Assembly (NCBI RefSeq): GCF_900129575.1
Contig: NZ_FQWE01000002.1
Span: 124,001-188,000 of the forward strand
Source: Flavobacterium segetis
GTDB lineage: Bacteria; Bacteroidota; Bacteroidia; Flavobacteriales; Flavobacteriaceae
Direction of reading: 5' to 3'
DNA length: 64,000 nt
Under the pieces are notes generated by a model, which saw only the letters and a program-made list of their open reading frames with translations, was not told where the DNA came from and ran no database searches. A program made the translations under genes and the position numbers. This document shows positions 30,698 through 34,488 of this stretch, piece by piece (the first letter of the stretch is position 1; each line of letters opens with the position of its first letter).

Positions 30698-30904
30698 TTA
30701 AATAAACAACGCGTCATTTTCTTCAGAATACATTAGAAAAAGTAAGGAGGTAGGCACTGTTTTTTGTGCTAACGCATTTTTAGAAATTTCGAATCTAGGA
30801 TGAATCAATTTATTTGACTCGGCACGGATTCCTACTATTTTACTTTTAGCAGTAAAAGTCTTTAAAAGCCTAAACGGCCTTAAGAAAAAATTAGCAACAC
30901 TCAT
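30698..30904 (-). CDS. Small hypothetical protein between attenuator and riboswitch
   Basis: A 68-codon open frame, basic in its first half (FFLRPFRLLKTFTAKSKIVG) and ending YSEENDALFI. No family recognised, no signal peptide or clear membrane helix. It follows the threonine-type attenuator by about 55 bases and precedes the SAM-I riboswitch by some 230 bases, so it would be the first gene reached when the attenuator reads through. No ribosome-binding site is evident. It may be a real regulated small protein or a chance frame in the leader. Confidence 0.35.
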   Translation of the reverse strand: MSVANFFLRPFRLLKTFTAKSKIVGIRAESNKLIHPRFEISKNALAQKTVPTSLLFLMYSEENDALFI

Positions 30905-30958: not shown

Positions 30959-30993
30959 AAAAACCCTTTTAGATTTTTATCCAAAAGGGTTTT
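30959..30993 (-). terminator. Attenuator terminator of the threonine-type leader
   Basis: On the minus strand AAAACCCTTTTGGA (30993-30980) pairs with TCTAAAAGGGTTTT (30973-30960), a 14-bp stem with one G-U and a six-base loop, ending in T5. Part of it (30989-30978) can pair instead with the segment right after the leader stop codon. Confidence 0.8.
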
Positions 30994-31012
30994 ACGTAAT
31001 ATTGTAAACTCA

Positions 31013-31024
31013 CTCTCTTGGATA
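31013..31024 (-). promoter_or_regulatory. Antiterminator segment of the threonine-type leader
   Basis: Minus-strand TATCCAAGAGAG directly follows the leader peptide's TGA and can pair with CCCTTTTGGATA of the terminator stem over 11 of 12 positions (one G-U). A ribosome at the stop codon would cover it, allowing termination; a ribosome stalled earlier would free it. Confidence 0.7.
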
Positions 31025-31102
31025 TCAACGGTCATAAATATACATTGTAGTATTTAAGAGCGCAGCTGTTGCAACTGAGGTATAATTTGTTTTGTGTACC
31101 AT
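31025..31102 (-). CDS. Leader peptide of a threonine-type transcription attenuator
   Basis: A 25-codon frame from ATG (31102-31100) to TGA (31027-31025), beginning MVHKTNYTSVAT and ending LLNTTMYIYDR. It has five threonines, with Thr18, Thr19, Met20 and Ile22 close to the end. These amino acids are products of the aspartokinase/homoserine dehydrogenase pathway encoded downstream. The antiterminator and terminator follow immediately. This matches the classical thr-operon attenuator design; the role of each codon is inference. Confidence 0.7.
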   Translation of the reverse strand: MVHKTNYTSVATAALLNTTMYIYDR

Positions 31103-31384: not shown

Positions 31385-32677
31385 TTATACTAATTGAGAC
31401 ATATTTATATTTGCAAAAACAGTTTCTAAATCTTCAATAAGATCCTGAACATCTTCTAACCCTACAGACAGTCTTATCAAATCTTGAGAGACGCCAGTTG
31501 CTATTTGTTCAGCGGCTGATAACTGCTGGTGCGTAGTACTTGCAGGATGAATTATCAATGACTTAGTATCACCAATATTTGCCAGTAATGAAAATAATTT
31601 AGTTTCATCTGCTACTTTTTTAGCAGCTTCAAATCCTCCTTTAAGTCCAAAAGTAACAATACCACTTTGCCCTTTCGGTAAATATTCTTGTGCCAAATCA
31701 TAGTATTTATTGGCTTTTAATCCAGGATAATTTACCCATGCTACCCCATCATGATTTTCTAACCAATGCGCCAGCTTTAAAGCATTTTCACTATGACGTT
31801 GAATTCTTATTGGTAGGGTTTCTAAACCTTGAATAATTTGGAAAGCATTAAACGGACTTAAAGCAGCACCAAAATCGCGCAAACCTTCAATTCTCACTTT
31901 AGCGATAAATGCAGCACGACCTAAAACCTCGTGATATACTAATCCATGATAACCAGCTGAAGGCTCTGTAAATTCTGGAAAATTTCCATTAGACCAATCG
32001 AAATTTCCTGCATCGATCACTACACCTCCAAGCGAAGTGCCATTTCCAGTTATATACTTTGTCAAGGAGTGAATAACAATGTCAGCTCCATATTGAATAG
32101 GGTTTAATAAGTACGGCGATGCAACTGTATTATCAACCATAAAAGGCACTTTAGCGGCTTTGGCCTCAGCCGAAATACTTTTTAGATCTAGAACATCTAG
32201 TTTTGGATTACCAAGTGACTCTACAAAAAATGCTCTTGTATTATCCTGAACTGCATTTTTAAAATTGCTCGCATCAGATGGATCAACAAATGTGGTGGTA
32301 ATCCCGAGTCTAGGTAAAGTAACTTTTAATAAATTGTAAGTCCCACCGTACAAACTACTTGACGCCACGATATGATCACCAGCTTTTAATAAAACTAATA
32401 GTGCTGTGGAAATTGCTGCCGTTCCAGATGCCGTGACTACAGCTCCTATTCCGCCTTCAAGCGTTGCTAAACGTTTTTCTAAAATATCATTAGTAGGATT
32501 GTTTAATCTAGTGTAGATAAATCCAGGCTCAGAAAGTGCAAAAACATTTGCAGCATGATCAGAGTTGTTAAATACATAAGAACTTGTTTGGTAAATAGGA
32601 ACGGCTCTTGTTCCAGCATTTTTAGTTACATCATGTCCAGCGTGTAAAGCGTTTGTTTCAAATTTTTGTGTACTCAT
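31385..32677 (-). CDS. metY: O-acetylhomoserine sulfhydrylase
   Basis: A 430-residue PLP enzyme of the MetY type, longer than MetZ/MetB as usual. The PLP lysine is in VIHSLTKYITGNGTSLGGV; YTRLNNPTNDILEKR and the MetY-specific inserts PEFTEPSAGYHGLVY and FIAKVRIEGLRDFGAALSPFNAF are present. It joins sulfide to O-acetylhomoserine, giving homocysteine and acetate. The leader carries a short peptide and a terminator (32776-32877). It is divergent from metK, with the shared 20-bp motif between them. Confidence 0.93.
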   Translation of the reverse strand: MSTQKFETNALHAGHDVTKNAGTRAVPIYQTSSYVFNNSDHAANVFALSEPGFIYTRLNNPTNDILEKRLATLEGGIGAVVTASGTAAISTALLVLLKAGDHIVASSSLYGGTYNLLKVTLPRLGITTTFVDPSDASNFKNAVQDNTRAFFVESLGNPKLDVLDLKSISAEAKAAKVPFMVDNTVASPYLLNPIQYGADIVIHSLTKYITGNGTSLGGVVIDAGNFDWSNGNFPEFTEPSAGYHGLVYHEVLGRAAFIAKVRIEGLRDFGAALSPFNAFQIIQGLETLPIRIQRHSENALKLAHWLENHDGVAWVNYPGLKANKYYDLAQEYLPKGQSGIVTFGLKGGFEAAKKVADETKLFSLLANIGDTKSLIIHPASTTHQQLSAAEQIATGVSQDLIRLSVGLEDVQDLIEDLETVFANINMSQLV

Positions 32678-32775
32678 AGTTTTTAGATTTAATTCAGTTA
32701 ATACTATTATAATTATTTAATTCTTAAATTCATTTTTTAAAATGTTCTACAGATTTATTACTGCTTTTTTATCAT

Positions 32776-32801
32776 AAAAAAACCCCTGCTGTTAGCAGAG
32801 G
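32776..32801 (-). terminator. Attenuator terminator in the metY leader
   Basis: On the minus strand CCTCTGCT, loop AAC, AGCAGGGG, then seven T. It is a compact intrinsic terminator about 100 bases before the metY start codon. AACAGC in its loop and 3' arm can pair with GCTGTT at the end of the leader peptide frame. Confidence 0.8.
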
Positions 32802-32829
32802 TCTTTATGATATGTTTTAATGTTTAAAA

Positions 32830-32877
32830 CTATACAACAGCGAGCTCCGCGGAATACTCCGGCATCTTAAAACACAT
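32830..32877 (-). CDS. metY leader peptide MCFKMPEYSAELAVV
   Basis: A 15-codon frame with ATG at 32877-32875 and TAG at 32832-32830. Sulfur residues Cys2 and Met5 come first. The last codons (Ala-Val-Val, plus-strand 32836-32841) contain GCTGTT, complementary to AACAGC of the downstream terminator. A ribosome completing the peptide would mask this segment and let the terminator form; stalling at the Cys or Met codons would favour read-through. Real translation is not proven. Confidence 0.65.
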   Translation of the reverse strand: MCFKMPEYSAELAVV

Positions 32878-32973
32878 ATTGACAGCACTTAAATTCATTT
32901 TTTCTTTTTTGATGAAGCAAATGTGCAAACTATTTTTTAATTCTCCAAATAAAAATTAATTTAATTTACAAAA

Positions 32974-32993
32974 CCTATAGATTTAGTAGACTA
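32974..32993 (+). promoter_or_regulatory. Shared 20-bp operator motif, copy 3 (metK/metY intergenic region)
   Basis: CCTATAGATTTAGTAGACTA, 16 of 20 identical to each of the two copies at the cys operon/permease region. It lies upstream of the metY leader on one side and about 65 bases upstream of the metK -7 box on the other. Confidence 0.5.
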
Positions 32994-33057
32994 TGTTAAA
33001 TTATCTTAATTTAAATTAAAAATCGGAAAGATTAATTTACAATTCAAAATGGTTTCA

Positions 33058-33065
33058 TACATTTG
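33058..33065 (+). promoter_or_regulatory. Promoter -7 element (TACATTTG) for metK
   Basis: A perfect TAnnTTTG match, with TTTA at 18 bases upstream as a weak -33 box. Transcription would start near 33072, just before riboswitch helix P1. Confidence 0.6.
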
Positions 33066-33076
33066 CACTCGAATAC

Positions 33077-33171
33077 AAGAGGAAAAATTTGAACTGATTG
33101 CAACCTCTTCATAATGAAATCAATTCATTGTGAATGCTGAATATTTTTCAGTAGAAAAAATGCTAAAGCAG
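33077..33171 (+). ncRNA. SAM-II-like riboswitch upstream of metK
   Basis: Helix P1 is AAGAGG (33077-33082) with CCTCTT (33104-33109). The loop ATTTGAACTGATTGCAA nearly matches the SAM-II loop of the metX riboswitch, with ATTGCAA placed directly before the 3' P1 strand. The conserved GCTAAAG occurs at 33162-33168, followed by CAG that can pair with CTG of the loop to form the pseudoknot. Between P1 and GCTAAAG are two extra hairpins (AATGAA/TTCATT, CTGAA/TTCAG). CTTTAG at 33180-33185 could alternatively sequester GCTAAAG, a possible switch. Confidence 0.7.
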
Positions 33172-33237
33172 AAACTCTCCTTTAGTCCTTTTCAGCAATT
33201 ATTTTTTCTCGTTTAATTTATAAAAATAATATTTATT

Positions 33238-34488
33238 ATGGCTTATTTATTTACGTCAGAATCTGTGAGTGAGGGACATCCAGACAAAATTGCAGATCAA
33301 ATTTCAGACGCACTAATTGATAATTTTTTAGCATTTGATGCGAATTCAAAAGTAGCCTGCGAAACTCTAGTTACAACTGGTCAAGTTATTTTAGCCGGTG
33401 AAGTAAAATCAAATACATATTTAGATGTGCAACATATTGCTCGTGAAGTAATCAGAAAAATAGGTTACACGAAGAGCGAATATATGTTTGAAGCAAATTC
33501 TTGTGGAATTCTCTCTGCAATTCACGAACAGTCTGCCGATATTAATCAAGGTGTTGATCGAGCAAATCCTGAAGAGCAAGGTGCAGGTGATCAAGGAATG
33601 ATGTTTGGCTATGCCACTAATGAAACAGATAATTACATGCCACTTGCGCTTGATTTATCTCATAAATTATTACAAGAATTAGCAATTTTACGTCGTGAAA
33701 ATAACGAAATCACTTATTTACGTCCCGATGCGAAATCTCAAGTTACTTTAGAATATAGTGATGATAATAAACCAACACGTATTGAAGCAATTGTAATTTC
33801 AACTCAACACGATGATTTTGATGAAGAAGCTACAATGCTTGCAAAAATCAAAAAAGATCTTGTTGCTATTTTAATTCCAAGAATTATTGCAAAAAATCCA
33901 GCTCACGCTCATTTGTTTAATGATAAAATTCAATATCATATTAATCCAACTGGGAAATTCGTAATTGGAGGACCACACGGAGATACTGGATTGACTGGAA
34001 GAAAAATAATTGTAGATACCTATGGCGGAAAAGGAGCTCATGGTGGTGGTGCATTTTCTGGAAAAGATCCAAGTAAGGTAGACAGAAGTGCGGCTTACGC
34101 AACACGTCATATCGCTAAAAATCTAGTTGCAGCCGGTGTTGCTGATGAAATTTTAGTTCAAGTATCATATGCAATTGGTGTAGCTAAGCCAATGGGAATC
34201 TTTATTGATACTTATGGAACATCAAAAGTAAATATGACCAATGGAGAAATTGCTAAGAAAGTAGAAACAATTTTTGATATGCGTCCTTACTTTATAGAGC
34301 AACGCTTAAAATTAAGAAATCCAATTTATAGTGAAACTGCAGCTTACGGACATATGGGTCGTACTCCAGAAACAGTAACAAAAACATTTACTGCTCCAGG
34401 CGGATTGACTAAAACCGTTACAGTAGATTTATTTACATGGGAGAAAGTAGATTTTGTAAATCAAGTAAAAACTGCTTTTGGATTATAA
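33238..34488 (+). CDS. metK: S-adenosylmethionine synthetase
   Basis: A 416-residue enzyme making SAM from methionine and ATP. Motifs: [37 protein letters not shown], the phosphate loop [21 protein letters not shown] and [20 protein letters not shown]. It has about 30 residues more than the E. coli enzyme, mainly in the middle (after residue 190, [17 protein letters not shown]), as in other Bacteroidetes. A SAM-II-like riboswitch in its leader would give feedback control by its own product. Confidence 0.97.

Follow-up and report, generated by a model that had tools for sequence, protein, structure and literature searches.

The metY gene of Flavobacterium segetis is very likely controlled by a classical ribosome-mediated transcription attenuator (probability about 0.88), in which the sensed signal is probably charged tRNA-Met and tRNA-Cys, mainly the former. 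The window analysed here is a 64,000 nt stretch of the F. segetis genome, in which a short leader ORF and an intrinsic terminator sit between metK and metY on the minus strand (Table 1). An Rfam scan of the window placed a SAM-II riboswitch at metK, which is divergent from metY, and a SAM-I riboswitch downstream of metY, before an ORF similar to metX and thrA; the metX part of this ORF scores under the curated cut-off. A first-pass annotation of the same DNA had described a shorter, 15-codon ATG-to-TAG frame, MCFKMPEYSAELAVV, followed by a terminator and metY. The terminator and the identity of the next gene were borne out. The short frame is present as well (nt 32877–32830, minus strand), but the start that aligns with those of relatives is the in-frame ATG at nt 32898, 7 codons further upstream. 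In the window, positions -3 and -12 relative to this start codon are A, and both belong to the set reported to promote initiation in F. johnsoniae (PMC6847099); positions -6 and -13, however, are G and C.

Table 1. Features of the metY leader region in the F. segetis window (positions are those of the window)
Feature	Position	Strand	Basis
Leader ORF MNLSAVNMCFKMPEYSAELAVV, 22 codons	32830–32898	minus	sequence; start and frame shared by aligned relatives
Stop codon (TAG) of leader ORF	32832–32830	minus	sequence
Presumed stall region, control codons Met8 Cys9 Phe10 Lys11 Met12	32863–32877	minus	core codon counts in relatives
Region 1, 5' strand of protector helix	32877–32883	minus	pairs with region 2
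Region 2, 3' strand of protector helix	32833–32839	minus	predicted in the no-ribosome fold of the window
Small hairpin CGGA-GTAT-TCCG, directly 5' of antiterminator strand	32850–32861	minus	columns 50–53:58–61, 91.5% of cells paired
Antiterminator 5' strand GCGGAG, leader codons 17–18	32845–32850	minus	pairing and matched changes across genera
Region 3, GACCTCTGC, common to antiterminator and terminator	32795–32803	minus	alignment and helix counts
Intrinsic terminator, stem 32803–32781, T run to about 32776	32776–32803	minus	helix 4, 96.2% of cells paired
metY, O-acetylhomoserine aminocarboxypropyltransferase, regulated gene	31385–32677	minus	TIGR01326, 638 bits (cut-off 495.1)

The region combines the properties by which such an attenuator is recognised: a short ORF with an intrinsic terminator close behind it, both ahead of the regulated gene, control codons for the pathway amino acid at the stall position, one strand common to antiterminator and terminator, a predicted protector helix that would work against the antiterminator on a ribosome-free leader, and a reading frame that is kept through the control codons and free afterwards. 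In the mechanism proposed, RNA polymerase would transcribe the short leader, with translation of its ORF beginning immediately. If Met-tRNA and Cys-tRNA are plentiful, the ribosome would pass the core, reach the stop codon and cover GCGGAG, so that CTCTGC would pair with GCAGGG and transcription would end at the T run. Were Met (or Cys) scarce, the ribosome would stall in the core and cover region 1, leaving GCGGAG free to pair with CTCTGC; the terminator would then be blocked and metY transcribed. On a leader carrying no ribosome, the helix of regions 1 and 2 would hold GCGGAG in a loop, and the terminator would form. The stalling, the ribosome footprint, the coupling of transcription to translation and the signal are what we infer in this scheme; its anatomy can be followed directly in the relatives.

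An indication that the leader is translated comes from the behaviour of its frame in 44 aligned leaders (alignment A1, built without rows L022, L065 and L076). The distance between the start ATG and the last column of the core (column 48) is 36 or 39 nt, always a multiple of three (44/44), and from that column to the end of the antiterminator strand it is 18 nt in 30 leaders and 17 nt in the other 14. The 14 shifted leaders keep GCAGAG, and read ...PQR or ...PQS at this point, not ...SAE. Conservation as RNA with a disrupted reading frame, which the first-pass annotation had counted against its own proposal, is thus found in the 3' half of the leader and not in its 5' half, and since a ribosome-mediated attenuator predicts that the frame is kept in the 5' half only, this split outcome fits such an attenuator. 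The annotation had also suspected selection on peptide or RNA. The whole peptide is not conserved, and a conserved-peptide reading was rejected because of the frame shifts in the 3' half; what is kept is the Met/Cys core, as codons, and the GC-rich 3' half CCGGAGTATTCCGCGGAG, as RNA that comprises the small hairpin and the antiterminator strand. Degenerate DNA patterns of the 15-codon peptide matched only 2 of 397 genomes of the family and 2 of 150 of the genus, each including the genome of the window. The other family match (L003) is a chance one inside an ABC transporter gene, and the other genus match (L005) is a true leader, located before a TonB receptor.

The control codons are confined to the core. 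With L068 set aside, 43 leaders have Met or Cys at 222 of 344 codons in the interval 13–36 nt upstream of the antiterminator, an interval chosen after inspection of the alignment; the corresponding counts are 4 of 143 for the codons preceding the interval and 8 of 401 for those following it. The same holds in 17 leaders from 16 or more other genera (L112 left out), where the core has 89 of 136 and the flanks have 2 of 73 and 3 of 170, so that flanking Met/Cys content is 1.8–2.8% on either side. Fewer Met/Cys codons occur in the core in the remaining two reading frames. The core sequences themselves vary (MCFMM, MSMMM, MCCMM, MMCMM). In some genera they contain Met and lack Cys, as in MKKVMYNMSMMMWKISAEDSIV and MKLNTNIMSMMMWKVSARATIM, so Met appears to be the more general signal. 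The core of the window is a weak example, with 3 Met/Cys codons of 8 relative to a mean of 5.2 in the 43 leaders, and with Lys where a Met codon is usual; over the whole leader, Met and Cys account for 3 of 21 residues (p = 0.004). The leader of F. psychrophilum (L022) lacks the usual stop codon and extends to 41 aa. The earlier suggestion that Cys and Met residues of the leader fit control of metY by the supply of these amino acids is supported.

Pairing between the coding segment and the terminator had also been proposed, with GCTGTT of the Ala-Val-Val codons opposite AACAGC. These letters are present, but only 60.9% of cells are paired in the 44-leader alignment, a value reached by 446 of 500 column shuffles, and this pairing was rejected. 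The idea that the coding segment can disrupt the terminator is nevertheless supported by a different pairing. The antiterminator strand, GCAGAG in most relatives and GCGGAG in the window, base-pairs with the 5' terminator arm CTCTGC, and as this arm is common to both helices, antiterminator and terminator are mutually exclusive. A run of at least 6 consecutive base pairs is found in 43 of the 44 leaders (93.5% of cells paired), the exception being L068, where the strand is broken (GCAGCG). Within Flavobacterium the antiterminator is almost invariant, none of its pairs having changed on both strands in the 44-leader alignment, and so it proves little there. Matched changes are seen across genera. 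A change of A:U:A to C:G:C in the antiterminator and both terminator arms occurs in leaders of four genera (L101, L107, L108, L110), a three-way change of A:U:A to G:C:G is found in L103, and other matched sets in L109, L111 and L119; this comparison left out L112, whose leader lacks an antiterminator run in the expected position.

The remaining helices were assessed in the same 44-leader alignment. Helix 4, the terminator, is paired in 96.2% of cells and the protector helix (helix 1, regions 1 and 2) in 86.4%, with three pairs of the latter changed on both sides. Region 1 overlies the codons just before the core. In the window 5 of the 7 pairs of the protector helix can form and 2 are broken, and in L006 the helix is degenerate. 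Taken as a whole, the named structure has 25 cells changed on both sides, compared with 7.1 in shuffles, and its paired cells, both-side-changed cells and covariation score all exceed 500 of 500 shuffles, for helices that were picked after the alignment had been inspected. For the helices without the antiterminator, pairs with both partners changed are no more numerous than in shuffles (4, shuffle mean 3.0; 158/500), and RNAalifold returned almost no consensus structure from the full alignment.

In single-sequence folding, the 131-nt leader of the window is more stable than expected (z = -3.64; all 200 shuffles were less stable). For its antiterminator the single-sequence significance is poor, since 32 of 200 shuffles do as well. 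The window taken alone is a weak case, and it is the relatives that carry the argument. Using assumed values for the limits of the ribosome footprint, the stretch freed by a core-stalled ribosome is predicted to adopt the antiterminator fold at -16.9 kcal/mol before the 3' arm of the terminator is made. With the ribosome at the stop codon, the terminator fold is predicted at -16.6 kcal/mol, and the no-ribosome structure of regions 1 and 2 at -16.1 kcal/mol. Once the whole terminator has been made, the terminator-containing fold is the more stable (-23.2), so the choice between folds would be kinetic, as it is in known attenuators.

Other explanations of the region are each improbable. One is nascent-peptide arrest, as in TnaC: the ribosome would halt on a particular peptide in response to free methionine, cysteine or a related metabolite, and the terminator would respond to that halt. 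A short ORF with conserved core residues ahead of a terminator would suit this, but the sequence is not conserved: mainly the Met/Cys identity of the core holds, the cores vary, and the C-terminal half changes frame, which makes peptide arrest a poor candidate. Slightly less probable again is that the RNA binds a ligand or protein, in the manner of a riboswitch, and that the ORF is incidental. Several conserved helices, and the nearby SAM-II (metK) and SAM-I (before metX) elements, give this reading some plausibility; against it, the indels of the 5' half are of triplet length and, together with the Met/Cys codons, point to translation. In addition, nt 32775–32901 have no match to the Rfam 15 SAM families and no Rfam family reaches its cut-off there, and T-box RNAs have neither a gathering-score match in the window nor a place among the weak matches at nt 32600–33240. 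Least probable of all is a plain, unregulated terminator, giving partial termination or ending another transcript, accompanied by a chance ORF. The window alone might be read in this way, its antiterminator not being significant and its Met/Cys content modest, but conservation across genera, the matched three-way changes and the frame test argue against it, as does the positioning of the leaders before metY or metX-like genes. Ribosome-mediated attenuation is the reading followed below.

Of 298 places identified by scanning for metY, the best 80 were analysed; among these the closest metY belongs to F. micromati (92% identity). The metY leaders of relatives fall into two sequence types. Type A, that of the window, is exemplified by MNLIAINMCFMMPEYSAECTIV, MKLVTINMCCMMPESSAECTIV and MNLTMCNMCRMMWKLPQSTSIA with a CCTCTGC...GCAGAGG terminator, and type B by MKTIAKRNMMCCKMMQMCIPICCCQK with the terminator CCTTTTGG...CCAAAAGG. 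Searches used the models R1 (type A) and R2 (type B), which the loci used for building match by construction. Within the upstream DNA retrieved for the best 80 loci (at most 3 kb each), A is found at 48, B at 67, both at 38 and neither at 3. Thirty of the 32 loci without A in the fetched DNA were then searched as genomes (L052 and L060 left out), and 27 of them have a type A element, in every case on the metY strand and 2.9–3.7 kb upstream of metY; none was found in the genomes of L055, L072 and L081. Where the two types are neighbours they lie 19–125 bases apart, both in the genus of the window and in nine other genera (in one of the latter, G111, a second R2 match was judged to be chance). 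The type B core, in a bin of 10–44 nt chosen after the alignment was inspected, has 208 Met/Cys codons of 367, and as its flanks are also rich (46/246 and 55/252), B is bounded less sharply than A. In a few of 31 type B rows (L055, L060, L072, L022) the antiterminator run is short or misplaced.

In the whole genome of the window, whose leader is one of the rows used to build R1, this model finds one strong place, the metY leader (E = 3.8e-18; next best 0.28). R1 matches at E ≤ 1e-3 occur in 26 of 239 Flavobacteriaceae genomes, about 20 of which are genuine, with six showing only chance-like matches. Of 26 R1 loci outside the window, 18 (L099–L115, L119) have, by eye, a Met-rich leader and a terminator, and the gene downstream is metY or metY-like in 15, metX-like in two (L100, L115) and unclear in one (L110); seven others (L116, L117, L120–L124; E 1e-4 to 1e-3) look like chance. 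R2 has no strong match in the genome of the window, the best (L094, E = 3.2e-4) being a terminator by eye. The metY gene of the window is therefore preceded by type A only, with no type B partner upstream, and B was presumably lost in this lineage.

Related elements lie on the other side of metY. A type-B-like leader, MVHKTNYTSVATAALLNTTMYIYDR, with a CCCTTTTGG terminator occurs at nt 30960–31102 (minus strand) of the window, and this terminator corresponds to a weak R2 match (L095, E = 0.023). The leader is followed by a small ORF of 68 aa without a Pfam match (nt 30698–30904, minus strand), and the two precede the SAM-I riboswitch that comes before the metX-like/thrA ORF. At this position before the metX-like gene, many relatives have a second A and/or B element; the metX arrays have a low Met/Cys content, which counts against the attenuator reading. 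Small proteins ending like SLLFLMYSEENDALFI, which by eye appear mutually related, are found downstream of attenuators before metY and metX in L010, L016, L130 and near nt 30698–30904 of the window. Upstream of a nirB nitrite reductase gene (TIGR02374, scoring over the cut-off) at L162:120-3073 lies a leader resembling type A, MKIIANNRCKMMLDYSAGMLL. The window also contains five matches to Flavo-1 RNA, of unknown function (nt 1206, 12645, 14246, 23602 and 47892).

At some loci elsewhere in the order, metY is associated with a different regulator. In a sample of Flavobacteriales, metY was matched in 22 of 119 genomes. Twenty of these 22 loci were scanned with Rfam, and at 6 of them (L128, L135, L138–L141) metY is immediately preceded by a SAM-I riboswitch. 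None of these six has a match to R1 (E ≤ 0.01) or R2 (E ≤ 0.001). The five loci of the genus of the window (L129–L133) contain A, B or both and lack a SAM-I element upstream of metY, and in 20 loci chosen from the best 80 all eight SAM-I matches are downstream of metY. L128 may have two serial sensors, as a Met/Cys-rich ORF stands between its SAM-I element and metY. Met-rich ORFs with terminators were seen by eye upstream of metY in other families of the order, at L134, L137 and L142, which match R1 or R2 only weakly (E 1.5e-4 to 1e-3); in the leader at L142, the segment ACTTAAAAGAG is by eye complementary to the terminator loop and the edge of its stem.

A TonB receptor, recognised by a motif of the receptor's end, is found upstream of metY in 28 of the best 80 loci, namely 25 of the 29 B-only loci and the three with neither A nor B. 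Two genomes (G400, L159; G317, L160) show the order metK, A leader, 948-aa TonB receptor, B leader, metY. A TonB plug domain was found in the receptor of G400, and NCBIfam gives no specific name above cut-off for either 948-aa protein. The location of the receptor between the A and B leaders suggests a role in methionine or sulfur uptake.

The trp- and his-type attenuators that act by ribosome-mediated control of transcription are known from Proteobacteria. With these the metY leader has in common an ORF with control codons, a strand shared by antiterminator and terminator, and a protector helix overlapping the control-codon region; it is unlike them in its Met and Cys control codons, its Bacteroidota host and the frequent presence of two different attenuators in series. 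The signals of the Salmonella mgtCBR attenuators are not known to be sulfur amino acids. Two short ORFs and attenuators are likewise described in the one mgtCBR leader (PMC3641672), in this case of a Mg2+ transport/virulence operon, unlike metY. SAM-I leaders of metY regulate the same gene, presumably for the same purpose, shutting off metY when methionine is plentiful, but sense SAM directly, unlike the ribosome-based leaders. Cysteine leader peptides of Actinobacteria are reportedly the subject of a 2020 study by Canestrari. Leader ORFs with Cys codons upstream of sulfur genes of Actinobacteria are described as having a Cys run near the stop and no conserved terminator hairpin (PMC1262725). 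In the metY leaders, by contrast, Met dominates, the core is mid-ORF and an intrinsic terminator is present; the window leader, with a single, mid-ORF Cys, does not qualify as a poly-Cys leader of that kind.

The nearest precedent comes from the same genus and concerns the same inferred type of regulation. In F. psychrophilum, leader-peptide attenuation was inferred upstream of amino-acid biosynthesis operons, with conserved 5' elements at pheA, hisG and others (PMC9723704). The main text of that paper does not contain the word methionine; metY is not among the genes named in its section on conserved 5' elements and may be listed in its Table S7. As of 2010, leader peptide systems were stated to be known only from Proteobacteria and Actinobacteria, the same paper adding Firmicutes (PMC2965389). 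A literature search, thin on subscription papers, found no methionine-sensing classical attenuator, and a 2010 comparative study by Lopatovskaya et al. may cover one. Such switches are little described in Bacteroidota, and the attenuators mentioned for this group in the literature found are predictions.

A leader that senses scarcity of Met although its own initiation needs Met raises a question, as Met starvation should also lower initiator tRNA, and a conflict would thus be built into any Met attenuator. A joint reading of the present data, held tentatively and at somewhat less than even odds, is that a two-input array of Flavobacteriaceae, a Met-dominated A and a Met+Cys B in series, replaces the metY SAM-I of other genera, that A also governs the TonB receptor in some species, and that the Cys codons and serial layout may resolve the Met conflict. 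If this is true, the TonB receptor under A would be a methionine or sulfur uptake gene. The attenuation mechanism itself is not new; what is noteworthy is the proposed Met signal, the arrangement of attenuators in series and their exchange with riboswitches. The metY leader would provide a concrete, testable example of an attenuator with clear control codons in Bacteroidota, and across genera a single gene, metY, would come under either a SAM riboswitch or ribosome-based attenuators.
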